A stretch of DNA of 64,000 bases from a virus. The DNA lies in IMG/VR virus record IMGVR_UViG_3300031963_000068, positions 20,231 through 84,230 of that record, one strand, 5' to 3'. The notes under the pieces were generated by a model. That model was not told the DNA's origin, made no database searches, and saw only the letters and a list, made by a program, of their open reading frames with translations. Shown in pieces: positions 20,374-61,293 of the stretch. Within the stretch, counting starts at the first letter, position 1. Each line of letters starts with the position of its first letter. The position numbers and the translations under genes were made by a program.

Positions 20374-21528
20374 ATGTTAAAGAAATTTTCAAGTTTTTTA
20401 AGAGAAGAGCTATATATCGAAGATATGGATAAAAACTCAGTAAATACTCTGAAAGAAAACATACTTTTCAGACTGAATGAATATAGAACTTTTATTCTCT
20501 CAAATATAATCTACAATTTTGAAACAAATAAAGTTGAATATAAAAATTTTGACCATATAGATATCAAAATTATTATGAGAGAACTAACAAATGAGTTTAC
20601 ACAAGAAGTTGTTGAGGAGTTGAATATAGAATCGTTTTTAAGAAAATTAAACCAAATTCTTGAATTAAAGAAAAGAAACACAAAAAGAAAAATAAGAGAA
20701 GCTTTTGATGATTATTACAAATCTATTGAAGTTAGAATCGACCAATTACATCAAATGGGTAAAACAGAAGACCACTTTGATGAATTTGAAGGAGAAGGTT
20801 CTATATTAGGCAGAAGACAATATGAATCTGAAAAGTATCAATTACAAGTAGAACTACTTAAACTTCAAGAATGGGTAAAAACAAATGGAAAAAAAGTTGC
20901 AATAGTTTTTGAAGGAAGAGATGCCGCAGGTAAAGGTTCCACTATAAAAAGATTCATAGAATACTTAGACCCTAAAGGATTCAAAGTAGTTGCTTTAGGC
21001 GTTCCTACTGAGCAAGAAAAAAACAATTGGTTTCAAAGATATGAAAATCACTTACCAAATACAGGGGAAATAGTTTTCTTTGATAGAAGTTGGTATAATA
21101 GAGCAGTAGTTGAACCAGCAATGGGATATTGTACAGAAGAACAATATCAAGATTTTATGGATAAAGTAGTTGATTGGGAAGAAAAGCAAATAAGAAATGG
21201 ACTAATACTTATTAAATTTTGGTTTTCAATTACTCAAGACAAACAAATTAAAAGATTTGAATTGAGACAAAAATCACCATTGAAATATTGGAAGTTTTCA
21301 CCAAATGATGCTAAAGTCTTAGATAAATGGGATGTTATTGGTAATTTTAAAAGACAAATGTTCCAACAAACATCTTCTAGACTATCACCTTGGGTTATAA
21401 TTAATTCAAATGATAAAAAAATAGGTAGATTGAATGCTATAAGATATGTATTATCTCAAATCAATTATGAAAATAAAAACAACGAATTATGTAAATATTA
21501 TCCAGAAGTTGTAAATATTCTGATATAA
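20374..21528 (+). CDS. ppk2: Polyphosphate kinase 2 with N-terminal tag (384 aa)
   Basis: PPK2 enzymes move phosphate between polyphosphate and nucleoside di-/triphosphates. Core motifs are intact: Walker A GRDAAGKG at residues 181-188, lid/Walker B FDRSWYNR at 236-243, then AVVEPAMGYC and the LRQKSPLKYWKFSP segment. The sequence is closest in feel to class I, one-domain PPK2. About 140-160 extra residues precede the core, against 30-60 in most family members. They begin MLKKFSSFLRE, one of four best matches to the T4-like capsid-targeting tag, with a possible cut after LRE. The extension is helical and Lys/Glu-rich. Function is well supported; packaging into the virion is inference. Confidence 0.92.
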   Translation: MLKKFSSFLREELYIEDMDKNSVNTLKENILFRLNEYRTFILSNIIYNFETNKVEYKNFDHIDIKIIMRELTNEFTQEVVEELNIESFLRKLNQILELKKRNTKRKIREAFDDYYKSIEVRIDQLHQMGKTEDHFDEFEGEGSILGRRQYESEKYQLQVELLKLQEWVKTNGKKVAIVFEGRDAAGKGSTIKRFIEYLDPKGFKVVALGVPTEQEKNNWFQRYENHLPNTGEIVFFDRSWYNRAVVEPAMGYCTEEQYQDFMDKVVDWEEKQIRNGLILIKFWFSITQDKQIKRFELRQKSPLKYWKFSPNDAKVLDKWDVIGNFKRQMFQQTSSRLSPWVIINSNDKKIGRLNAIRYVLSQINYENKNNELCKYYPEVVNILI

Positions 21529-45849: not shown

Positions 45850-47916
45850 ATGGCACAACTAACTCAAAAAGTACTAGACTATTTTACATACGCATATGAT
45901 TCGAAAGGTCAAAAAATGGGTAATACTGGATTCAAAGCCGAAGATCTTTTAACAGCGGTAAGAATTAGAAGCTCTAAATTAAAACCAAAATATCAAGGAG
46001 GACTTGATAAAGTTATATTCTTAGCTAAGAATGATAAAAAAACACTTCAATATGTTATTAAATCACAAATTATTCTTGATGATGGTAGTTACACCGTTAT
46101 TATGTCAGCATATTCACCTTCCGGGTCAACACTTGTTGGGCAAAATGGAGTCACTTGGGGTAAAGATGGTGTAAAAGAAATAATAGAAAGTGAAGAAAAA
46201 CAACTTGAGGTGATTAATAACCTGCTAAAATATAATGAGTTTCAAATACAAGCAAAATATAAAGATGATTTTATTGAAGATGGTCCGTGGACTATAATAC
46301 AAAATCCTTGGAATCCTGATGTAATACCACCTCAAGCCTTAGAAACTAAACCATCACCACCATTCAAACCAGAAGAAACTTTTATACCTTGCACATCAAA
46401 TGGATTTATAAGCGAAAATGCTTACACAAAAAGTTATAAATTTATAATAAAAGAACCACCAACATATCCAGAAGAAAGTAATGTTTACGCAGTGGTCTGG
46501 GTAATGAGTTTGGAAGAATTTTCTAAAGTAAATCAAAAAGATGCTGAAGTATTGGCTGGTATTAAAATTGTGAATAATACTGAAATACAGAGACCAGTAA
46601 AGGATAATTATTATCTTGTTGGTCACATATACTCTTTTCCAGAGGTGAATCCTAAAACTAAACAACCACTTTATGATCCATTTTACGAGGTTCGAGAAAG
46701 AGAAGGAAAAAAATTTATTAATTTAGATACAACAAGAGGCTTCAGATTAGAAACTCAAGAACTAAGTGAAAGTAGTACGGTGGATGACTTTATAAATTTA
46801 GAAGTTAACACTTATCTTACAAGTCTTTATAAGGATATCGTTTATGGTACTAAACAAACTACACAATGGACAGAAGCCTACGAAAAATTCAAAAATAATC
46901 AAATTACGGATGCACAACTTACAAAAGTTTATGAAAATATTCATAATCTACCGGAGTTTAAATTTAACCTAATTCAATCTGAAGTACCGGTACAAAAACA
47001 AGAAGCTACACCTGATCCAGAAACAACTCAACCAGCAATAGTAGAACCATTCAAAAGTGGAAAATATATCTTTAACGTAGGTACGGTAAGCAATAGTGGT
47101 ATTTTAACAAATTCAGAGCTAGGCACATTCAGCGTAGTCAATCCATTTCTTGATGAGAATCCTTATCAATATACAGAACTCGATGAGAATATTGTTGATG
47201 ATGAATATAGTGAGGTTTCAGCAACAGATTTAGACGAAGCGTCACAGGAAGTTCCTAAATACCTAATTGACGACAGAGCAGATCAACCAAGCACTTCAGA
47301 AAGTTCCGGCACAGGAACTGGCACAAATGACGGTGGAGGAGGTTCTAATGAAACAGCACCTACTGTCTCAATAGATGGTCTGTCACCATGGACAAGAAAA
47401 ATTAGCAGATTGACTAAAGGAAATACTTGGCAAGACCATGCAGCAAATTACATTTCACTGAAAGAAGGATTCACATCAAAAGCATCCTGGGATGTCAATC
47501 ACTACAGAATGGGATATGGTACTGAAGTTATAGTGAAAAATGGAGTAAAATACGAGGTGAAACAGGGTGATACTTGTACAAAAGAAGAAGCAGTTGTAAC
47601 ATTAGCGAAGTATGGTATTCCAGAATATTCTAAACAAATAGGTAAAGATATTGGTGCTAATTGGGATAAGTTAACAGGTTACCAAAAAGCAGCACTTACA
47701 AGTCTTGGTTATAATGTTGGTGCTTATTACATCACATCAAGAGGGTATGGTAAAAGAATTAAAAAAGCTATAGATAAAGGCGACTACAAAGAAGCCGCAA
47801 AAGAAATACTAAACGGACCAAGAAGTGCAGGTGGTAAGGTATTAAAAGCATTAGTGCGAAGAAGAGAAGAAGAGGCTCAATTGTTTTTACTACCAGATAG
47901 TAAATCTATTTACTAA
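45850..47916 (+). CDS. Baseplate protein with C-terminal GH24 lysozyme domain (688 aa)
   Basis: Residues about 530-680 are a T4-lysozyme-like domain: ISLKEGFTSKASWDVNHYRM with Glu539 and Asp548 at the spacing of T4L E11/D20, then YQKAALTSLGYNVGA, then AAKEILNGPRSAGGKVLKAL, then RRREEEAQLF. The third T4L catalytic residue (Thr26) is not conserved; Arg or Met occupies that place. The N-terminal 500 residues are structural (YKFIIKEPPTYPEESNVYAV), followed by a Gly/Ser/Thr linker (SSGTGTGTNDGGGGSN). In T4 the lysozyme is part of the spike gp5; here it sits on a separate hub-neighbour. Local murein digestion during injection is the probable role. Confidence 0.75.
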   Translation: MAQLTQKVLDYFTYAYDSKGQKMGNTGFKAEDLLTAVRIRSSKLKPKYQGGLDKVIFLAKNDKKTLQYVIKSQIILDDGSYTVIMSAYSPSGSTLVGQNGVTWGKDGVKEIIESEEKQLEVINNLLKYNEFQIQAKYKDDFIEDGPWTIIQNPWNPDVIPPQALETKPSPPFKPEETFIPCTSNGFISENAYTKSYKFIIKEPPTYPEESNVYAVVWVMSLEEFSKVNQKDAEVLAGIKIVNNTEIQRPVKDNYYLVGHIYSFPEVNPKTKQPLYDPFYEVREREGKKFINLDTTRGFRLETQELSESSTVDDFINLEVNTYLTSLYKDIVYGTKQTTQWTEAYEKFKNNQITDAQLTKVYENIHNLPEFKFNLIQSEVPVQKQEATPDPETTQPAIVEPFKSGKYIFNVGTVSNSGILTNSELGTFSVVNPFLDENPYQYTELDENIVDDEYSEVSATDLDEASQEVPKYLIDDRADQPSTSESSGTGTGTNDGGGGSNETAPTVSIDGLSPWTRKISRLTKGNTWQDHAANYISLKEGFTSKASWDVNHYRMGYGTEVIVKNGVKYEVKQGDTCTKEEAVVTLAKYGIPEYSKQIGKDIGANWDKLTGYQKAALTSLGYNVGAYYITSRGYGKRIKKAIDKGDYKEAAKEILNGPRSAGGKVLKALVRRREEEAQLFLLPDSKSIY

Positions 47917-50009: not shown

Positions 50010-51905
50010 ATGAAAGTAGATGCAAAAAAAACCTATATTGGAGTTGTTGAAGATAATAAGGATCCAAAAAAGGAAGGAAGAGTAAAAGTAAGAGTCATGA
50101 ACGTTTATGACAAAATGCCTTTAGAAGAAATTCCTTGGGCATTTCCATGGAAAGATTTAAATGGACTTCAATTTAATTTACCAGACAAAGGTAAAGTTGT
50201 AATGGTAGTTTTTGAAGATGGTGATGGAAATAAACCTGAGTATATTTATGCAGACCATTATAATATTAATTTAGAAAAAAAATTGAAATCTCTTTCAGAG
50301 TCTGATTATATTTCTATGAAATCACTTATTTTTGACCATAAAACTCAAGTTTATGTAAATGATAAAGATGGTTTAAAAATTGACCACAAATATAATAATA
50401 TCAATATAACTGAAAACACAGTAGATATTAATTTAAAAGATAACAATAGAAATATAAATATAGGTGATGCAACAGCCACACAACAAGCGGTATTAGGAAA
50501 TCACTGGATGGATTGGTTTGATGAATTTGTTGAAAATTTACTAGGTTCACAAGCAGGACCTTTTTTAGGTAATTTAGGAGCACCTGTAATTCCAAATCCA
50601 GCATTTATATCTTGTCTATTAAGATATAAAGCGCTAAGAGATACTACTTTTTTATCACATCATGTCAACATAGTCGATAATAATAAAGTAACTACAGTAG
50701 GTCTTTCAAAAAGAGAAGATGATGCAACTATAGGTGACAACTGGGAATCAACAGTACAAGAAAATACATTTACCGAAAAGAAAGAAGAAGATTTCAAACC
50801 AGTAGAAGGTCCCAAAACAGCCTATGAACAACCAACACCAACAACGGCAGGACCATCATCTTCAGTACCAACAAAAGAGTCACTTTCTTCTATCAAATCT
50901 GATCCTAAATTAGAAAAACTAGTCAAATTCCTTAGGTCAAAAAGTTACAAAGTCTATGAAGATCCAGGAACCGTAAATTTAGTAGCAATGAGAACAAAAG
51001 ATGCTGGGCAAATAACGAATAAATTTGACGACACACTTTATGTATTTTTTAGAAAAGATAATCTAAATTGGCAATTACTTGAATATGAAATAACAACAAC
51101 TCCTGGTTATGTACCAGAAACTAGTAATTTACCTGATAAAGTTCCAATAATAGCTTATGCTCAGTTTATCGACAAATTGAAACTTGATACCTATGTCAAG
51201 ACTAAACCAGAATATGTTAATGCAGAAGGAAATTTGGTTCCTTCTTCAACAGAAGAACATAAAGCATTAAGATTCACAGAAGCCGCAATCTATAGAAATG
51301 ATAAATTAGACAAATATAACTATAGAGCTAAAGTCGAAACAGGTGATTTTAATTTATGGATTAGAAGAGCATCTAGTACGGGCAGTGTAGAAAAAGTATT
51401 TAACTACTCAGAAGATGGTTCTCAGGTTTTCAAAAATACAAACCAATATAATCAATTTATTACTATAATAGAGGAACAAGCAAAAACAAATAACATTTTC
51501 AGCTATGCTATTTGTAGAAAAAGTGAATTTGATGATTTCATACCTGATTCTGAACAGAAAGAAAAAGAAAAAGAAGAAGCAAAGGCAGCAGCAAGAGGCA
51601 ATAAAGAACTTACAGGTGAAGAAGAATTAGATTTAATTTTAAGTAGAATAAATACAGCGCAAGTTCAAAAAAATTCATCTGGTGATAGACAAATAGTTTT
51701 ATTTTATAACTCTCAAAGAAATTACATTGTTTTTTATAACAATAAACGATTTGCTATATTTGACAATCCAAGTCCCGGAGGATTTGTATCAAAAGGTTCT
51801 TTCAAAAATGGTGGTAGAAAACTTGTTGTAACTGAAGGAAAAAAAGAAGGAAAAACTTTTGAAGCTGAAAATTTTTGGGAAACTTTGAAGTTGTATAAAA
51901 AATAA
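50010..51905 (+). CDS. 5: gp5-like baseplate spike protein with OB fold (631 aa)
   Basis: The N-terminal 90 residues match the OB domain of T4 gp5/VgrG-type spikes: TYIGVVEDNKDPKKEGRVKV, then IPWAFPWKDLNGLQFNLPDK, then GKVVMVVFEDGDGNKPEYIY. A beta-rich segment follows (HKYNNINITENTVDINLKDN). The central linker is Pro/Thr-rich, and two similar C-terminal halves end in a Lys-rich region. No lysozyme insert is present; that domain is on the gene 45850-47916. Works at the central spike that pierces the envelope. Confidence 0.75.
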   Translation: MKVDAKKTYIGVVEDNKDPKKEGRVKVRVMNVYDKMPLEEIPWAFPWKDLNGLQFNLPDKGKVVMVVFEDGDGNKPEYIYADHYNINLEKKLKSLSESDYISMKSLIFDHKTQVYVNDKDGLKIDHKYNNINITENTVDINLKDNNRNINIGDATATQQAVLGNHWMDWFDEFVENLLGSQAGPFLGNLGAPVIPNPAFISCLLRYKALRDTTFLSHHVNIVDNNKVTTVGLSKREDDATIGDNWESTVQENTFTEKKEEDFKPVEGPKTAYEQPTPTTAGPSSSVPTKESLSSIKSDPKLEKLVKFLRSKSYKVYEDPGTVNLVAMRTKDAGQITNKFDDTLYVFFRKDNLNWQLLEYEITTTPGYVPETSNLPDKVPIIAYAQFIDKLKLDTYVKTKPEYVNAEGNLVPSSTEEHKALRFTEAAIYRNDKLDKYNYRAKVETGDFNLWIRRASSTGSVEKVFNYSEDGSQVFKNTNQYNQFITIIEEQAKTNNIFSYAICRKSEFDDFIPDSEQKEKEKEEAKAAARGNKELTGEEELDLILSRINTAQVQKNSSGDRQIVLFYNSQRNYIVFYNNKRFAIFDNPSPGGFVSKGSFKNGGRKLVVTEGKKEGKTFEAENFWETLKLYKK

Positions 51906-52240: not shown

Positions 52241-54544
52241 TTAACCCTTTAAAGGATTTCCTAAAGCATCAGGCCATAAAAAACTTTGAGAAGTCTTTTT
52301 AGTATTTGCTTGAGACCACTTTCCTGGATAATGAGTTATGGCTTTCTTACCGGTTGCTGGATTGTTACCCGAATCATTTACCCTTATTCTACCCTGTTCA
52401 TCTATGCCTGTCATACATAAGTAGTGAGCACCATAAGATTTTTTTGTACTACCATCACCACATAAACCAGTAGTACTACCTGCATGGTTTATTGGGTAAC
52501 CTTTTTTCAATAAAAGTTCAACTTTATCATCACCTATATTTGAAAATGCTTCTATATTTAATCCAAAAGTTTCTTTAAACTTAGCCTTATTAATTCCTAA
52601 GAGTGTACCACCGGCGCCACAAACTCTACCTCCATAATCTAAAACAAACTGACCTACTATTGATGGTGTTACAAAACTTTTAGCATAACCCTTTTTAGCC
52701 CAGTAATTTATCATCATCGATAAACTACTTGGCATACATCCTGAAGAACAAATAGTAGAACCATCGGTACAAACTGTTTTATTACCTTTACCATATGCAT
52801 ATTTATTAAATCTAGGATCACACTGAGTGTGTAGAGGAACTCCATTGAAACCAGGAGGTACTTTTAATTTAGAGGCCTCCCATGGTGTATCTGGCTCAAG
52901 ACCAGTAGCCGAATATGAACCTTGTGGCACTGTCAATTGTTGGCCGCCGTTTGGTAATTGAGCAGCTATAGAGGCTTGTTCAGCTTCTATCTCAGCTCTT
53001 TCTTCAATGGTATGTATATTTTCACCTTCACCAACAAAAGCAGCTTCAGTAAATTCATCATCACCATCTTGAAGATATTGCTCGATTTCATCAGTAAATA
53101 TATTATCTGGATCAATAGCAGGTATATCACCAATATAAACTGAAAACATTGGCATATCAACTCTTGTTTTGACATCTAACAAATCTGGTAATTTTACATT
53201 AAGCTGGTACTTTTCATTATTAGCTAGTGCCTCTTGATTGACTGGATCATTCGGATCATTGGCAAATGGACTGACATATTCTAATTCGACTGTCGGATAA
53301 AAATCAGGTTCACATAAAGCCAATTTTTCATAATTTGGTGTCGATTTCTTCCAAACATCTATGATTGCAGTAATCAATGATTTATCTGAGTTAATTTTTT
53401 CTATTGCTGGACTCCAGGTCGTTGGTAATTTTACTGAGAATGCTGGATTTGAAGAACCAGATGTTCCCGATGTTACAGATATACCACTTGTTCCGGAAGT
53501 ACCAGATGTTGAAGCACTAGTACCACTAGTTCCTGATGTTGAAGCACTAGTACCACTAGTTCCTGATGTTGAAGCACTGGTGCCGCTAGTTCCTGATGTG
53601 GAAGCACTGGTGCCACTAGTTCCTGATGTTGAAGCACTGGTACCACTAGTTCCTGTAGTAGATGAACCAGATGTTCCACTTGTTCCTGTTCCAGCATCAG
53701 TAGATGAACCAGGTTTTGGTCTCCTTTCAAATTCTAATATCGTGGCATCTTTGGTAGTGAAATATTCCTCTTTCTGACTTTTTGGGTCTTTGTATTTGAC
53801 CAATACATATTTTTTTATCAATGTTTCAGGATACACTTCTATTTTTGAAGTATCAGGATTCAACCAATGAGCAGAGCCAATAGTTTTATCTGATGTTTCA
53901 ATTTCAATACCTCCATTGGTAGACCAAATTTCACCACCCAACCAATTTCCTTTTTCAGGTGAATTTCCGTCAATATTTTTATAAATAGGTTCTTTTGTTT
54001 TACTATCATATCCAGATAACCACAAATTGGCTTCTTTACCATTTATAATCCATGCTATATTTATTTCAGCACCATTATTCAAATAGTATTTATCAAAACC
54101 AAAATTTCTCACTTTTGCTGGAGTATCCTGCCACGGATCTTGTACTATCTTGTAATAATTTTCAGGTGTAGCTCTAACATCTATACCTTTAGTGGCTGAT
54201 AATTTTTTTTGTGCAGCAGTAGTCATCATTTCGCTAATTAAACTATCTTCAGTAATTGGCTTATCCGCCTTAGTAGTCTTTTTAAAATTAAGAGTGCCTT
54301 TTGGATCCCCGACTGGTAAAAAATCTACCGAATATTCAGTTTTATCATCATTAACCGAGACAACTATTTTTGCATCACTTAATGCACCTTTCATATTACT
54401 TGGTGCTAAATCAGAAACTCCAGATGTACCTGAAGTACCAGAGGTTGAAGTATTGGAAACACTTGTATTTGGTGTCACTTCTCCTAATCTTTCATCAACA
54501 CTAGCAAATCTTGGTCTAACTCTGACCTCTTTTAATACCGCCAT
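52241..54544 (-). CDS. Tail protein with Gly-Thr-Ser repeats and C-terminal C39-like peptidase (767 aa)
   Basis: C-terminal 165 residues match papain-fold C39-type peptidases: oxyanion Gln in PLHTQCDPRF, catalytic Cys in ICSSGCMPSSLSMMINYW (G-C-x-P-[ST]-S), His in YGAHYLCMTGID, and Asp/Asn in RVNDSGNN. Residues about 290-365 are collagen-like GTSG/GTSAS triplets, linking to a structural N-terminal region with another short GTSGTSG run (residues 34-41). A cell-wall or precursor endopeptidase at the tail tip is plausible. The ATG at 54544 lies 21 nt after the upstream stop, and no promoter box is visible. Confidence 0.65.
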   Translation of the reverse strand: MAVLKEVRVRPRFASVDERLGEVTPNTSVSNTSTSGTSGTSGVSDLAPSNMKGALSDAKIVVSVNDDKTEYSVDFLPVGDPKGTLNFKKTTKADKPITEDSLISEMMTTAAQKKLSATKGIDVRATPENYYKIVQDPWQDTPAKVRNFGFDKYYLNNGAEINIAWIINGKEANLWLSGYDSKTKEPIYKNIDGNSPEKGNWLGGEIWSTNGGIEIETSDKTIGSAHWLNPDTSKIEVYPETLIKKYVLVKYKDPKSQKEEYFTTKDATILEFERRPKPGSSTDAGTGTSGTSGSSTTGTSGTSASTSGTSGTSASTSGTSGTSASTSGTSGTSASTSGTSGTSASTSGTSGTSGISVTSGTSGSSNPAFSVKLPTTWSPAIEKINSDKSLITAIIDVWKKSTPNYEKLALCEPDFYPTVELEYVSPFANDPNDPVNQEALANNEKYQLNVKLPDLLDVKTRVDMPMFSVYIGDIPAIDPDNIFTDEIEQYLQDGDDEFTEAAFVGEGENIHTIEERAEIEAEQASIAAQLPNGGQQLTVPQGSYSATGLEPDTPWEASKLKVPPGFNGVPLHTQCDPRFNKYAYGKGNKTVCTDGSTICSSGCMPSSLSMMINYWAKKGYAKSFVTPSIVGQFVLDYGGRVCGAGGTLLGINKAKFKETFGLNIEAFSNIGDDKVELLLKKGYPINHAGSTTGLCGDGSTKKSYGAHYLCMTGIDEQGRIRVNDSGNNPATGKKAITHYPGKWSQANTKKTSQSFLWPDALGNPLKG
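53511..53655 (-). repeat. Tandem 30-bp coding repeat, about five copies
   Basis: Unit gaagcactagtaccactagt plus tcctgatgtt, starting at 53511, 53541, 53571, 53601 and 53631, with one to three mismatches per unit. Codes for G-T-S-A-S-T-S style repeats in the peptidase gene. Confidence 0.85.
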
Positions 54545-55084: not shown

Positions 55085-57148
55085 TTAACTAGGTGGAGTG
55101 AAAACTGTTTGATTTGTGAATGATGTTAAAACTGAAGCATTACCTTGTCCTAAATTTACCTCATCACCAGTTTTGGCAACAACAGCTGGATTAACATTAC
55201 CACCACTTGGTGCTCCTGATTTATCCTCTGTCTTTGCACCTTCTTTTTGAGTATTTTGAGCCTGTGATGCCAATTCAGCCACCTTCTTATCATATGCGGC
55301 CTTAGCGGTTGTATATTCAGTACTAGTCTCGCCTTTTTCAGCCTTAATCTTATCCAATTCTTCTTTTTCTTTTTTCAATTGATCAGTAGCAGCATTTGTT
55401 TGAGTTGTCGCATCTTGTGTGGTTGATGGGCTACCACCAGATAAACCTGGAGAAGGCGGAGGCGTGAGTGGTAAATTAAGTTGTTGACCAGACGCGTCAA
55501 ATATAGGATCAAAATATTGACCTTTATCAGAACCAGTATCATTACTCTCAATATAATCTTTTTTGATATTGACAACTCTTAAATTACCAGTGTTAAATTT
55601 TGCTAATATTTCTTGTAGACCTTGAGGTCTCGCGTTTGTTAAAGTAAACTCCGCCTTTATACTAGCGGGCAAGTCGTTAAAAGCAAGATGGGGACCAAAT
55701 GTCAAAGTAATATCACCAGCTAACATATCACCGCAACAGAAAAATGGTCTCATAGGATTACCTAATGTCAAATGCCAGGGTGTAGAAGGCGCACCTGATA
55801 AAGCATTAGCGATACCTAATATTTCAACTTTATATTTAGTAATATATTGTTTAAATAAATTACTTAATTTACTTAATAATCCACTTATAAAACTTTTAGC
55901 TTTATCAACTAAATCTTGATTTTTTGCCAAAGCATCAGCCTCTGCTTGTGAAGGATCTACTGGCTCAGCTGGTGTTGATGAAGGTACTGCATCATTTAAA
56001 AGTTTTAGAGCTTTATCAGCAGCCTTTTGTAACTCTCCTGTAATTTTTGATATACCAGCCTGTATACCAGTTAAAATATCATTTACTAAACTACCAGGAT
56101 CATTCATCCACTTTCTTAATTTAGCAGTAAATGCACTTGATAATCCATAGTTATCACTACGAGAAGTACCAAAAATTACAATATTATTAACTATATCCAT
56201 AAATGCTATTGTAGGATCTATACCAGAAATAAATTTTTGTTCGTATTCGACTTCCATTTTTACCGAAATAGCACATTTTAAACCGGATGCATTTTCACCA
56301 TATCCAATAGTTTTTCTTCTTTTTGCTTGTTTTATGATATTGGGATTACCCGATGGTAATGGACCAGAAATTGAACTACCACTCAAAACACCCATTGAAA
56401 CTAAAACCTGTCTTTGTAAAACTTCTGTAAAACCAGGAAGAGGTATTATGTTAAATGCTTTACCGGCAGCATCGCCTAAATTATTTAACCCAAAATCTTG
56501 ACCCATTTTATTCAGTACCGCTGTAAAATCAGCATCTGCTTCAATCCATTCCTCACCAAATGTAAAACTTAAAAAATCTTGATCTTCCGGCTTCCAACCG
56601 ATTAATACGGCTTTTGGAACACCAGCAGACTTTCCAAAAATATTATCACCAACTGGACCACCAAATCTACGACATATCATCAATCTATTGTTTGGGTAAA
56701 CACCAAGATGTTTTAAATATGCAAAATCACCCGGACGGAGTGCAGCACTAGGTGACTTACTTAAATTTTCTATGATATTAAGTAAACTCATATCATACAT
56801 CCTATCATTATGAATTTTTGATGGAAGTGTTCTATAAGTATCAGAAGCTGGATTAGTAAATTGAGAAGATGCTGATAAACCTAACTCATCAACTTCACCT
56901 TCATTTAAAGGATCTGGATTTGCATAAAATCTTGGTATAGAACCACCAGTAAATAAAGATCTAGGTGCCTGAACGTTTTTACCGCCTTGAACAACACCAG
57001 TATCTTGTGGTCTACTTCTGTTATAAGAAATAACATTTACGTTTCTTGATTTGCCAGCGTTAAAGGTTGACATATTATCTCTAGTAGGTCGAGATAAAAT
57101 ATTTATTAAACCCAAAGGAGAACCACCAAGTTTATAAGTATTTGCCAT
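55085..57148 (-). CDS. Baseplate/tail structural protein (687 aa)
   Basis: Residues 95-210 (DMSLLNIIENLSKSPSAALR, then PGDFAYLKHLGVYPNNRLMI, then CRRFGGPVGDN) are a block I recognise from other large Bacteroidota phages. Residues 445-530 (TPWHLTLGNPMRPFFCCGDM, then LAGDITLTFGPHLAFNDLPA) suggest a tube-like beta domain. The C-terminal part has Thr/Gln/Lys-rich low complexity. First gene of the minus-strand baseplate group, from a box 22 nt upstream. Structural role by context. Confidence 0.55.
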   Translation of the reverse strand: MANTYKLGGSPLGLINILSRPTRDNMSTFNAGKSRNVNVISYNRSRPQDTGVVQGGKNVQAPRSLFTGGSIPRFYANPDPLNEGEVDELGLSASSQFTNPASDTYRTLPSKIHNDRMYDMSLLNIIENLSKSPSAALRPGDFAYLKHLGVYPNNRLMICRRFGGPVGDNIFGKSAGVPKAVLIGWKPEDQDFLSFTFGEEWIEADADFTAVLNKMGQDFGLNNLGDAAGKAFNIIPLPGFTEVLQRQVLVSMGVLSGSSISGPLPSGNPNIIKQAKRRKTIGYGENASGLKCAISVKMEVEYEQKFISGIDPTIAFMDIVNNIVIFGTSRSDNYGLSSAFTAKLRKWMNDPGSLVNDILTGIQAGISKITGELQKAADKALKLLNDAVPSSTPAEPVDPSQAEADALAKNQDLVDKAKSFISGLLSKLSNLFKQYITKYKVEILGIANALSGAPSTPWHLTLGNPMRPFFCCGDMLAGDITLTFGPHLAFNDLPASIKAEFTLTNARPQGLQEILAKFNTGNLRVVNIKKDYIESNDTGSDKGQYFDPIFDASGQQLNLPLTPPPSPGLSGGSPSTTQDATTQTNAATDQLKKEKEELDKIKAEKGETSTEYTTAKAAYDKKVAELASQAQNTQKEGAKTEDKSGAPSGGNVNPAVVAKTGDEVNLGQGNASVLTSFTNQTVFTPPS

Positions 57149-57182: not shown

Positions 57183-57572
57183 TTAATAGTCCCTGATGAT
57201 TTGTGAATTTGAAAATTTTGATAAATTAGATAAGACATCGTCCATAATATCAGGACTTTTTCTAAACTCATTATAGAATATTAAAACATTGAAATTATTT
57301 TCACCAAGTATCTTTTTAAGATTAAGTAGTTTTTCTATTGAAAAATCATTATCAAAATCTGGTAAATAATAAATATCTTTCTTTTTGTCTATTGCTTGTT
57401 GTATTTTATTAAACACAATTATTTTTAAATAAGTTTTATCATCATTAAAATCTACCTCCTCTTCGTCAAGAATTTTCTTTATATCTATAATATATTTATT
57501 CTTTATTCGATTTATTTTAATAAACTTATCAAATTTCTTCCTTGTTTTGCAATAGACGCAGAAAAACTCCAT
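57183..57572 (-). CDS. Unknown protein (129 aa)
   Basis: Starts MEFFCVYCKTRKKFDKFIKI, with one C-x2-C pair. The rest is an alternating beta/alpha pattern (KIIVFNKIQQAIDKKKDIYY, then NFNVLIFYNEFRKSPDIM) reminiscent of a P-loop-like or Rossmann-like fold, but no Walker motif is present. Not recognised. Confidence 0.5.
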   Translation of the reverse strand: MEFFCVYCKTRKKFDKFIKINRIKNKYIIDIKKILDEEEVDFNDDKTYLKIIVFNKIQQAIDKKKDIYYLPDFDNDFSIEKLLNLKKILGENNFNVLIFYNEFRKSPDIMDDVLSNLSKFSNSQIIRDY

Positions 57573-57646: not shown

Positions 57647-57658
57647 TTTAATATATAG
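57647..57658 (+). promoter_or_regulatory. Phage promoter box TTTAATATATAG
   Basis: 5 nt before the ATG at 57664. The spacer gaaggt is one of the few purine-rich pre-start sequences in the window. Confidence 0.55.
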
Positions 57659-57663
57659 AAGGT

Positions 57664-59052
57664 ATGAAGAAATATTCTGATAAATTTTTGAATCAATCTA
57701 ATAAATTGAAGACAGCTAAAGTTGGTTTTGAGTTTGAGTTCTATATGAAAGACCTTTCATTTTATAAAACGTTAGAAATGCTAAATGAAGAAATGAAACC
57801 AGTAAGAGTCTGGGGTTTTAGACAATATCATTCAGATTTTACACCAGATGAACTTAATTTTAAAATTGAACCAGATCTTTCCGGTGGCTCAAACATGGTT
57901 GAATTAGTTACCGGACCATTGGATTTTTTTGATGCAAAATACTATTTAATAAAAATACTAAAGTTTATCCAAAACTATGGTTACACCAATGAAAAATGTT
58001 CTATACACTACAATCTATCATTCAATAACGAAGAAAAAAACTTAAACGATATAAATATTTTAAAGTTAATATTAAATACGGATGAAGAAGAAATATACAG
58101 AAGTTATCCTACCAGAAAAGGCAGTATCTATGCAAAAACAATTAAAAAAATAATACCTTATAAAGAATATGATTTCTTTAATATACCTATAAACGTAGTA
58201 AAAAACAATATGAGACTACCTAGTGATAAATATTACGGTATAAATTTTTTACACATTAACAATGATAAAGAAAGTCAAAGATTAGAATATAGATATATCG
58301 GTGGTAAAGATTATGAAAAAAATATAGGTCAATTGATATATTTTATGGAAAGATTTATAATAAACACATTTGATGCTATAGATGCTGATTTCAATTCTGA
58401 AGATATTAATAAACTTGAAGAATATCTTGAGACAAACATAAAAACATATCAAAATTTATCAAAATATGATAATTTTATTGTTGACTTTCCAACAATACAA
58501 ATACAAATTGACCAAGATAATGCTTATGATGTTATATCTGCTTATTATAATAAAATTTATAATAAATTATTTAACTTAATAGATTCAACTCAAGAACTAA
58601 AAGAGTGTATTGTAAATTATGTGACAGCAACACAAACTATAGAAGTTGTAGACGCAAATGTCAAATCAACATCGACTGTATATGGCATTGAACTCATTAA
58701 TTGTAAAGTAGAAGGTATTTTTGAAGATTGCTTTTTCGTTGGTTCAGAAATAAATAACTCACAAATAACCAAGTCTAAATTACAACACACCGATGCTGTG
58801 AATTCTAAAATATTAAATTGTAGAGTTGAATCATCACAATTAGATAATTGCTATTTTATGGATGGTTATCTAAACGGCGATATGTTTGGTGGTATTTATA
58901 GATCTGGTAAGTTAGGCCCATATGCGACTATGGATTCTGATGTTAAAATCGTAACAGATCATGACAATTTCTTTGACACAAAATACGAAGACGAGACAAA
59001 AGGTGATAAGAAAGGTAGAATTGAAGGCTACGGCAAACCGATAAAGAAATAA
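57664..59052 (+). CDS. Amidoligase-like enzyme fused to a beta-helix repeat domain (462 aa)
   Basis: Residues 18-215 fit the amidoligase (COOH-NH2 ligase, glutamine-synthetase-fold) family: GFEFEF at 21-26, DLSGGSNMVELVTGPL at 71-86, CSIHYNLSF at 112-120 and RLEYRYIGG at 206-214. These supply the metal- and ATP-binding Glu, His and Arg residues. Family members make ATP-dependent amide bonds on peptides or amino acids. Residues 340-405 are short repeats (LINCKVEGIFEDCFFVGSEI, then KILNCRVESSQLDNCYFMDG), a pentapeptide-like or right-handed beta helix. The start MKKYSDKFLNQSNK is a weak tag variant. The fusion is unusual; substrate unknown. Confidence 0.7.
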   Translation: MKKYSDKFLNQSNKLKTAKVGFEFEFYMKDLSFYKTLEMLNEEMKPVRVWGFRQYHSDFTPDELNFKIEPDLSGGSNMVELVTGPLDFFDAKYYLIKILKFIQNYGYTNEKCSIHYNLSFNNEEKNLNDINILKLILNTDEEEIYRSYPTRKGSIYAKTIKKIIPYKEYDFFNIPINVVKNNMRLPSDKYYGINFLHINNDKESQRLEYRYIGGKDYEKNIGQLIYFMERFIINTFDAIDADFNSEDINKLEEYLETNIKTYQNLSKYDNFIVDFPTIQIQIDQDNAYDVISAYYNKIYNKLFNLIDSTQELKECIVNYVTATQTIEVVDANVKSTSTVYGIELINCKVEGIFEDCFFVGSEINNSQITKSKLQHTDAVNSKILNCRVESSQLDNCYFMDGYLNGDMFGGIYRSGKLGPYATMDSDVKIVTDHDNFFDTKYEDETKGDKKGRIEGYGKPIKK

Positions 59053-59060
59053 AAATTAGA

Positions 59061-59072
59061 ATTAATATATAA
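59061..59072 (+). promoter_or_regulatory. Phage promoter box ATTAATATATAA
   Basis: 4 nt before the ATG at 59077. Confidence 0.55.
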
Positions 59073-59076
59073 AGAT

Positions 59077-61293
59077 ATGAAAATAAAAGACTACAGGTTA
59101 TTTTTGGATTTAGAATCCGATGAACCAATTAATGAAGAAGTTGGACTAAGAAACCTTAAAAAAATAGCTAAAAGTTTAGATAACATTGACCAAGCGTTAG
59201 TAGGAACACAAGCTATGGATAAAAAACCATCAGTTTCGGCTAATAAGTCTGACCTAACAGAGGTTGTCGGTAATCTAAGAACATGTGAGATTTATTTTCA
59301 TAAAGACTTGGACGGAGTTACATCAGCATTAGCAATGAAACAAGTGTTAAAAGGTCAGTATGGCATAGAGACGGTTGATTGTCACACAATTCAGTATGGT
59401 GGTTTAGAATTCGCTGTTCAATTACCAAAGGAAGGAAACTTAGCAGTTCTTGTTGACTTCGCACATTCGAAGCCAATGTTTACAATAGCAACTGACCACC
59501 ATCAAGAACAAGTAGGTGCTGAAGATACAAAATCAACTTATTATAAACATTCAAGATCTAATGTTGAAACAATATCTGGAGAAATAGCAAAACAAGAAAT
59601 TTTTCCTCAAGGTGACATAGAATTTATACAAACAATAGATTCTGCAAACTTTTTAAAATGGAATATTGAACCAAAAGACTTACATCAATCAATTTTTAAA
59701 TTGGATAAAAATCAACCAATTGAGAAAATTAAATTTACTTTAGGTTTTGTTGTAAATAGACTATTATTAGCGTATAAAAATAAAAGAATCACTTGTAAAT
59801 CTTTAGACGGTAAAAGAGATCACATTAACAGGAATTTATTAGAATGTTTAGTTTTGGATTGTTCTCCAAATTTATATTCAATGTTCAATAATCTTAGTCA
59901 TTATATTAAATATGCTAAAACAAATGATAAACTAGGAACTCTTGCTGATCCCGAGGACTTAGCCAAAAACTTATCATCATATAAGCAAAGAATGAAAACC
60001 TATAAAGACAAATCTTATGATGAAAAATATAAGATAATTCAACAATACGGCGGTGGTGATATGATGAAACCGGGTTCTTATGATAGATACGTTGTTTTTG
60101 AAAACACTCCTGATTCTGAGTTTTTATGTATAGTTTGGCCAATGGGTCTTATACAAGTATCTTGTAATCCATTCAAAGAAAAAAAATTAAAAGATATTAA
60201 TTTAGGCGAAATCGCCAAAGAGGTTTTGGGTAATTACGAATCTGTCTTCAAAAGATATTTTATATCACTTGAAGCTATCAAACAAGTTTATGAAACATCG
60301 CAAGATTGGAGAAGTATGCAAAAAGCGATTGGAGACAGCTATGTTGGTATAGGATTTAAATTTTCAGATTTAGAGGCATTCTATATTGATTGTATCTACA
60401 ACAAGCAGGAAAAAGTCACTAATATTTTGACCAAAGTGCTTGAAATTGACTTTAGAGCAAACTCTGAAAAGTATGAAGATATTGATGTAATCATAGATTT
60501 CAATGGTGAAAAATTCCAATTTAAAACTACTGAAATTGATTCAATAAAAGAATTTGTTAATATTGTTGGAAGATTAGGTTTAAATGCTACAAATAAGTTA
60601 ATACCTTTCAGAAAAACTAATCAATTTAAAGAATCTGAAACATTTGTTAGTGATATTTCAAAAAAACAAATCGAAGGTGCGAAAAATAACATCGCAAACC
60701 TAATTAAATCAATGTTAAGCAATGGCATTGTATCAAAAAGAGATAAAATAACAATATTTGAAGGTCTACCTGATAGTAAACTAAAAGAGGCAATGGATAC
60801 AAATTATGAAGAATTGACTAAAGAACAAAAAAACTACTTAAGTGGATTAAAAATTCCAGTATGGGAATTAATCATCAGGAATTCAGGAGGTCATCCTTCA
60901 ATCACAAACATTTCAGGACTAAATTTCTTAGCTTATAACAAAAAGGTAATGAAAATAGTTTATAAAACTGAAAACTATACAGATTTACTTAAGAAAATAG
61001 CAAAGGATTTTGTCAATAATTTAAAGGAAAAAATAGATGCAGTGAATGCTGGTGAAACCGTAACTTATGATACTAAGGGAATTGAACTTTATGGTCAAGA
61101 TACAAATGAAAGTTTTGAGTACCAACTTGTTGATAAAAACACAGGTGTTGCGAAACCAGTAAGCAAAGAAGAGTTTTTAAAAGCTGGCGCTGAAAAGGCA
61201 ATGAGACCTGACAGAAAAAGTTTAATGACCATTGATAATGATAACAAGAGAATAATTGCTAAATTTGAATCATTTAATAATTCAAAATTGTAA
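59077..61293 (+). CDS. DHH-family phosphoesterase (738 aa)
   Basis: DHH domain: FHKDLDGVTSA with D-x-D at residues 77-79, VDFAH at 126-130, ATDHHQEQ (139-142 is the DHH core) and a further Asp at 188 in TIDSAN. A DHHA1-like NSGGHP occurs at 602-607. Such proteins are RecJ-type nucleases, oligoribonucleases or cyclic-dinucleotide phosphodiesterases. This one is large, with about 400 residues between the two parts. Start MKIKDYRLFLDLESDEPINE is a variant of the tag. The 3' end overlaps the convergent gene by 20 nt. Substrate cannot be told from sequence. Confidence 0.8.
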   Translation: MKIKDYRLFLDLESDEPINEEVGLRNLKKIAKSLDNIDQALVGTQAMDKKPSVSANKSDLTEVVGNLRTCEIYFHKDLDGVTSALAMKQVLKGQYGIETVDCHTIQYGGLEFAVQLPKEGNLAVLVDFAHSKPMFTIATDHHQEQVGAEDTKSTYYKHSRSNVETISGEIAKQEIFPQGDIEFIQTIDSANFLKWNIEPKDLHQSIFKLDKNQPIEKIKFTLGFVVNRLLLAYKNKRITCKSLDGKRDHINRNLLECLVLDCSPNLYSMFNNLSHYIKYAKTNDKLGTLADPEDLAKNLSSYKQRMKTYKDKSYDEKYKIIQQYGGGDMMKPGSYDRYVVFENTPDSEFLCIVWPMGLIQVSCNPFKEKKLKDINLGEIAKEVLGNYESVFKRYFISLEAIKQVYETSQDWRSMQKAIGDSYVGIGFKFSDLEAFYIDCIYNKQEKVTNILTKVLEIDFRANSEKYEDIDVIIDFNGEKFQFKTTEIDSIKEFVNIVGRLGLNATNKLIPFRKTNQFKESETFVSDISKKQIEGAKNNIANLIKSMLSNGIVSKRDKITIFEGLPDSKLKEAMDTNYEELTKEQKNYLSGLKIPVWELIIRNSGGHPSITNISGLNFLAYNKKVMKIVYKTENYTDLLKKIAKDFVNNLKEKIDAVNAGETVTYDTKGIELYGQDTNESFEYQLVDKNTGVAKPVSKEEFLKAGAEKAMRPDRKSLMTIDNDNKRIIAKFESFNNSKL

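Follow-up and report, generated by a model that had tools for sequence, protein, structure and literature searches.

A predicted, divergent amidoligase fused to a pentapeptide-repeat β-helix, widespread among phages and present in the largest of them

Introduction

What might a phage do with an amidoligase that is joined to a repeat domain and that lies apart from the peptide or GAT-domain genes which could be expected as its partners? This question is raised by a gene located in the window analysed here, that is, a stretch of 64,000 nucleotides corresponding to positions 20231-84230 of the 84,230-base virus record IMGVR_UViG_3300031963_000068, in which the gene is present as a single copy. 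In the literature searched, the terms ‘amidoligase’ and ‘pentapeptide repeat’ were found together in one paper only, a broad survey of a different protein superfamily, and neither term occurs in the main text of the paper on huge phages (PMC7162821). Here, we describe the fold, conservation, distribution and neighbourhood of the encoded protein and then consider which activity, docking partner and target we infer for it.

Results

The gene encodes a protein of 462 residues, which can be divided into the following parts (AF2 models and homologues are described below):

57664-59052, + strand: amidoligase-pentapeptide-repeat fusion, 462 aa; open reading frame, with 131 distinct homologues aligning over both domains
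57664-58383, + strand: predicted glutamine-synthetase-fold (GS-fold) amidoligase core, residues 1-240; AF2 model of residues 1-320 and matches to glutamine synthetases in the PDB
58636-58917, + strand: predicted right-handed pentapeptide-repeat β-helix, residues ~325-418; AF2 strands, Pentapeptide_4 matches and a period-5 test
58918-59049, + strand: C-terminal tail, Gly/Lys-rich, residues 419-462; disordered from residue 434 (pLDDT <50) and variable among homologues

The AF2 model of residues 1-320, for which 82 homologues were used, exhibits a pLDDT of 88.5 and a pTM of 0.84. Comparison with the PDB yielded 45 chains at E≤1e-3, nearly all of which are glutamine synthetases (best E 9e-7, probability ~1.00), with TM-scores that are modest, about 0.4. 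Based on this model, the N-terminal core is predicted to adopt the glutamine-synthetase fold. While the predicted core fold is alike, glutamine synthetases (8fbp and others) share ~10% sequence identity with the core and give no sequence-level match, and a sequence-profile search of the PDB with the core returned chance matches only.

Searched alone against Pfam, PHROGs and NCBIfam, the window protein yields no family match for its core, and it falls below detection by Pfam Amidoligase_2 (PF12224), so that the family claim depends on its relatives. Among these, homologue L069 exceeds the curated Amidoligase_2 cut-off (23.0 versus 22 bits), and matches at E≤0.1 were obtained for 6 of 23 diverse homologues. 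Furthermore, hhalign comparison with the profile of the Atu_ph07 amidoligase (AUZ94978.1), which itself exceeds the Amidoligase_2 cut-off, gave a probability of 97-98% and an E-value of 4e-13 over 198 columns, with the motifs EPDxS...VEL, H-x-N, N-x-YA, KY and E-[FY]-R being aligned. The two proteins share a GS-fold core as well as PD-x-S, VEL, H-x-N, N-x-YA, KY and E-[FY]-R motifs, but the Atu_ph07 protein is devoid of a Pfam pentapeptide domain and its N-terminal part is longer. A structure search among viral models ranked A0A6J5PQ40 from BFVD highest (E 4e-30 over the full length; 454 aligned columns, 22% identity), which belongs to an uncultured Caudovirales phage and is uncharacterised; many phage proteins that bear the name amidoligase came next. 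The catalytic signature of Amidoligase_2 (E-x-E, D-x-S...E, H-x-N, E-x-R) is present, with only H115 varying among the 131 homologues. Judged from these sequence comparisons, membership in Amidoligase_2 appears remote, yet real. A ligase of the GCS/glutathione type was also considered and rejected: no GCS family was matched at E≤1 by 21 members or at E≤0.1 by the 23 diverse members.

Residue conservation was assessed in a set of 233 loci, which encode 137 distinct proteins, 131 of them full length. The motifs of the core are:

57724-57741, + strand: GFEFEF, residues 21-26, with predicted Mg-binding E23 and E25, both invariant (131/131)
57868-57918, + strand: EPDLSGGSNMVELVTGP, residues 69-85, with D71, S73 and E80 invariant (131/131)
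58003-58014, + strand: IHYN, residues 114-117, with H (87/131) or Q (44/131) at position 115
58228-58245, + strand: KYYGIN, residues 189-194, with K189, Y190, G192 and N194 invariant (131/131)
58279-58305, + strand: RLEYRYIGG, residues 206-214, with predicted catalytic E208 and R210 as well as Y211 and G213 invariant (131/131)

Ten motif residues (E23, E25, D71, S73, E80, K189, Y190, N194, E208 and R210) are hence invariant in homologues whose identity decreases to ~28%, as are R151, Y156, G192, Y211 and G213. The metal-binding role of E23 and E25 is predicted by inference from the glutamine synthetase family, H115 is a probable further metal ligand, and in the Atu_ph07 amidoligase it is (I)EFR that is aligned with the RLEYRYIGG motif. 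Glutamine at position 115 is found in all members of group C (see below) and in L054, and histidine elsewhere. Mean pairwise identity amounts to 53% for the core, 36% for the helical linker, 38% for the β-helix and 31% for the tail.

The full-length AF2 model, computed with 21 relatives in the alignment, exhibits an overall pLDDT of 74, and pLDDT values are mostly 92-97 over residues 340-410. In this model, strands recur about every 5 residues across residues ~325-418. Pentapeptide_4 is matched by 21 of 21 close members, with a best E-value of 2.6e-6 and with scores under the 38-bit cut-off among the matches listed, and a period-5 test was significant for both the homologue family (p = 0.005) and the window protein alone (p = 0.025), with no signal for period 6. 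Foldseek matches of the full model comprise glutamine synthetases as well as the pentapeptide proteins Rfr23, AlbG, MfpA and Qnr, and profile matches in the PDB likewise include AlbG and MfpA. A left-handed hexapeptide (LbH) helix was rejected: weak Pfam matches exist in a few members, but the period is 5 and not 6. MfpA, AlbG and Qnr are right-handed β-helices with 5-residue strands, as is predicted for the window protein; they are, however, free-standing gyrase-binding proteins, whereas the helix in the window is short and fused to an enzyme.

An earlier note, made from the letters of this DNA, had described an amidoligase core with intact motifs joined to about 65 residues of pentapeptide or right-handed β-helix repeats. 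The core, for which the note named loss of catalytic residues in relatives as an argument against it, is borne out by the GS fold of the AF2 model and by the ten invariant residues, H115 alone being variable. The helix likewise appears in the full-length model with a period of 5, and its length had been underestimated, since it extends over residues ~325-418. The note had also proposed to look for the same fusion in other phages, and the two-domain architecture turned out to be retained across the 131 distinct homologues, including those of the four giant genomes considered below. The fusion protein is very probably a new, widespread and divergent variant of Amidoligase_2.

Average-linkage clustering of the 131 proteins, which does not represent a rooted tree, yielded four groups: A (the type of the window, 54 members), B (the type of the 735 and 636 kb genomes, 20 including singletons), C (43) and D (14 including singletons). 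In a collection of phage records, matches are confined to six records of 462-735 kb, and the nearest DNA is that of LR745206, a 634,780-base uncultured phage, with 75% identity. Successive queries of IMG/VR returned 30, 67, at least 475 and 218 relatives in result sets that overlap, and hundreds of other metagenomic phage contigs also encode the fusion protein. The four largest complete phage genomes of a 2020 paper comprise 634, 636, 642 and 735 kb (PMC7162821), and all four encode the fusion protein with intact predicted catalytic residues (LR745206, LR756504, LR756502 and LR756501/LR756503). The hosts of the largest phages are predicted to be Bacteroidetes (PMC7162821). The gene is absent from Lak-C1 (540 kb), whose group is also assigned to the Mahaphage clade (PMC7162821). 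Among 84,980 cellular genomes scanned for the motifs, no homologue was found; distant ones would escape a scan of this kind. Weak matches to the core profile occur in other open reading frames of LR756502 (642 kb; 208759-208974 and 81114-81209), which are possible paralogues. Such deep conservation in genomes as fluid as these implies that the protein has an important job.

The genes of the window to which we refer in the following are:

45850-47916: endolysin-domain protein (phrog_7, E 4e-19)
50010-51905, + strand: gp5-type baseplate hub protein (phrog_430, baseplate hub subunit and tail lysozyme, E 5e-14)
52241-54544, - strand: protein with long GTSGTSAST-type repeats and, at its C-terminus, a C39-like peptidase domain (PF13529, E 1e-7)
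55085-57148, - strand: conserved neighbour, 687 aa, near the amidoligase in 52 loci of group A, 24 of group C and 5 of group D
57183-57572, - strand: divergently transcribed neighbour, 129 aa, in 52 of 54 group A loci, mostly with 70-92% identity (tblastn)
57649-57657, + strand: promoter-like motif TAATATATA, separated by 6 bp from the ATG of the amidoligase gene
59077-61293, + strand: DHH-motif phosphoesterase-like protein, 738 aa (PF01368 DHH, E 5.8e-5, 23.8 bits; cut-off 28.1)

Two further statements of the earlier note concern this neighbourhood. As regards GAT and cyclotransferase genes, its remark that no partner is near holds for the entire 84 kb record, in which neither GATase_6 nor GGACT was found. 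A DHH-motif, phosphoesterase-like gene follows as it had stated, beginning 24 bp downstream of the amidoligase gene with conserved DHH and SGGH motifs, and this association is limited to group A: a DHH gene is near the amidoligase in 51 of 54 group A loci (in 12 directly after it on the same strand), and none was found in the other groups. Being restricted to a single group and mostly not directly adjacent, the DHH protein was rejected as functional partner.

The informative neighbourhood of the amidoligase is the baseplate and structural region, on which the earlier note is silent. In group A, three conserved genes (at 57183, 55085 and 54566) adjoin the amidoligase and the gp5-type gene is close by; a gp5-type gene is likewise near the amidoligase in groups C and D. 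The 687-aa protein matched no named family and may be structural, judging by gene context. The 129-aa protein is the most conserved neighbour, with a conservation generally above that of the amidoligase itself. In groups C and D, a series of genes on one strand comprises, in this order, the gene of the gp5-type hub, in C also one of 620 aa, an S1-repeat gene, the amidoligase, a head-tail-adaptor-like gene (phrog_211), a gp25-like gene (phrog_261), a gp6-like baseplate wedge gene (phrog_219, E 2e-32) and two more genes, separated by short gaps or joined by small overlaps. Here, the S1-repeat gene abuts, overlaps or just precedes the amidoligase in 55 of 57 loci; examples directly before it are L069 4830-5987, L238 6231-7517 and L077 17550-18716. 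The S1 and amidoligase genes of groups A and B are far apart (in LR745206 at 316 and 108 kb, respectively), and S1 proteins are encoded by all ten large phage genomes or contigs examined, including Lak-C1. The amidoligase of group B is often near a DNA polymerase gene, and the sole structural neighbour is an adaptor-like gene, located, where seen, mostly 1.6-4 kb away on the opposite strand. Two loci of this group, L055 and L070, contain a multi-copy family which by eye resembles mobile, homing-endonuclease-type proteins. Amidoligases of unrelated phages are also found near portal, adaptor or terminase genes.

The motif TAATATATA occurs 17 times in the window, and 16 copies are within 40 bp upstream of an ATG (14 when open reading frames cut by the window ends are excluded), where ~0.3 would be expected from position alone. 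Example sites are 57649, 59063, 20361, 19388, 5687 and 57172. Two classes of spacing to the ATG can be distinguished, 4-7 bp for several enzyme genes versus ~18-28 bp for several structural genes, and both are also evident at further group A and group B loci, but not in C and D. For 46 of the 54 group A loci, a TATATA-type motif is located 4-7 bp before the ATG of the amidoligase; the gene at 55085 exhibits the long spacing, and the DHH gene has a promoter-like motif of its own at 59063. If TAATATATA is a promoter, the short spacing suggests that the amidoligase mRNA would be leaderless or nearly so. A scan for sigma-70 promoters revealed no excess over shuffled sequences. The phage also encodes a polyphosphate kinase 2 (PPK2; 20374-21528, PF03976, E 7e-80).

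Discussion

We propose that the GS-fold core would bind Mg-ATP, phosphorylate a carboxylate to yield an acyl phosphate, and join the latter to an amine under release of phosphate, with the β-helix possibly serving as a rigid, perhaps dimerising arm for protein docking, by which the ligase would be directed to a macromolecular target. This target might be a protein of the phage's own particle, which would be modified during assembly. The protein is very probably an active GS-fold carboxylate-amine ligase equipped with a β-helix, considering that conservation is higher in the core than in the helix or the tail and that the motif residues are invariant. Taken as a whole, an active ligase docked by its β-helix onto a virion protein is the best explanation that we can offer, and we hold it with moderate confidence. 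Considered separately, the assignment of a virion protein as target is tentative and could well prove wrong. Since the amidoligase is encoded amid tail, baseplate and connector genes in most groups, a protein of the phage's own particle is nonetheless the likeliest target: the gene is part of a baseplate operon in groups C and D, and in group A it is near the gp5-type gene and conserved genes of the structural region. Against this explanation we count that (i) in group A, transcription of the amidoligase and of the adjacent structural-region genes is divergent, (ii) its own, near-leaderless motif is of the class found before enzyme genes as well, e.g. that of PPK2, which suggests a control apart from the structural genes in group A, and (iii) group B exhibits a different setting, often with a DNA polymerase gene nearby and with an adaptor-like gene that is mostly encoded on the other strand as its sole structural neighbour. 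The location of the Amidoligase_2 gene of phage tf in an early metabolic cluster and the glutamine replacing H115 across an entire group are likewise counted against the proposal. One may speculate further, although we consider this rather unlikely, that the largest phages possess a dedicated ligase which, guided by the β-helix, adds a new amide-linked modification to their own tail, baseplate or connector proteins as a conserved step in the assembly of giant virions. If virion or host proteins are indeed modified, this would represent a new post-translational chemistry of phages that is accessible to mass spectrometry.

The baseplate operons, together with the replacement of H115 by glutamine in one group, would also fit a non-enzymatic structural or assembly factor that merely kept the fold and uses its β-helix as a tail-spike-like element. 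However, the other predicted catalytic residues do not vary in spite of a very large divergence, and the helix is less conserved than the core, which makes such a factor highly improbable. The same operons place an S1-repeat gene beside the amidoligase in nearly all group C and D loci, and S1 genes are present in every large phage genome examined, as one might expect if the ligase acted on the translation apparatus or on the phage S1-repeat protein as its partner, in a manner resembling RimK, which adds glutamates to ribosomal protein S6. We nevertheless regard this as unlikely, since the S1 gene is remote in groups A and B, Lak-C1 encodes S1 and lacks the amidoligase, and the adjacency may merely reflect a frozen operon.

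Host peptidoglycan represents another conceivable target. Wall peptides of Bacteroidetes contain free carboxylates. Stem-peptide carboxylates of peptidoglycan peptides or precursors might, for example, be amidated or capped in order to prepare lysis or to block other phages, with the β-helix binding the wall or a wall enzyme. The endolysin-domain and C39-like peptidase genes of the window and the Bacteroidetes hosts predicted for the largest relatives (PMC7162821) are consistent with this. Yet a C39-domain gene is nearby in just 20 of 69 loci (tblastn), a domain search found no wall-binding domain in the window protein, and its N-terminus has no apparent signal peptide, as judged by eye, so that a cytoplasmic enzyme would need to act on precursors; we thus give a peptidoglycan target little credence. 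Finally, the product might be a small molecule, e.g. a γ-glutamyl amine made in a butirosin-type or LUZ24-type pathway, for which the GGACT cyclotransferase would provide the releasing step. GGACT is indeed encoded by the genomes of 634, 642 and 735 kb as well as by two more large contigs, and amidoligase and cyclotransferase genes are close together elsewhere (phage tf, a Christensenellales phage). In none of these five large records, however, is GGACT linked to the amidoligase; it is absent from 13 of the 18 amidoligase-carrying records examined (the 84 kb record included, and several being fragments), and GATase_6 is absent from nearly all of those searched, with one occurrence among the giants (G004, ~16 kb from the amidoligase). 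A small-molecule product is therefore, in our assessment, improbable. GGACT as hidden partner was likewise rejected, given its patchy occurrence and neighbours that show no evident amide pathway. The amidoligase cluster of phages LUZ24, PaP3 and tf (tf_21), which like the window comprises an Amidoligase_2 domain in a phage, is an early block with COOH-NH2 ligase, GATase, ATP-grasp and AIG2/BtrG-like genes (PMC3890496); the locus in the window, in contrast, has no GATase or AIG2-type gene nearby, and the direct profile similarity between tf_21 and the window protein is weak. About 1.2 kb from GGACT, LR745206 encodes a 285-aa protein (L264 5339-6193, corresponding to ~23.3-24.2 kb of the genome) which by eye resembles a truncated glutamyl-tRNA synthetase.
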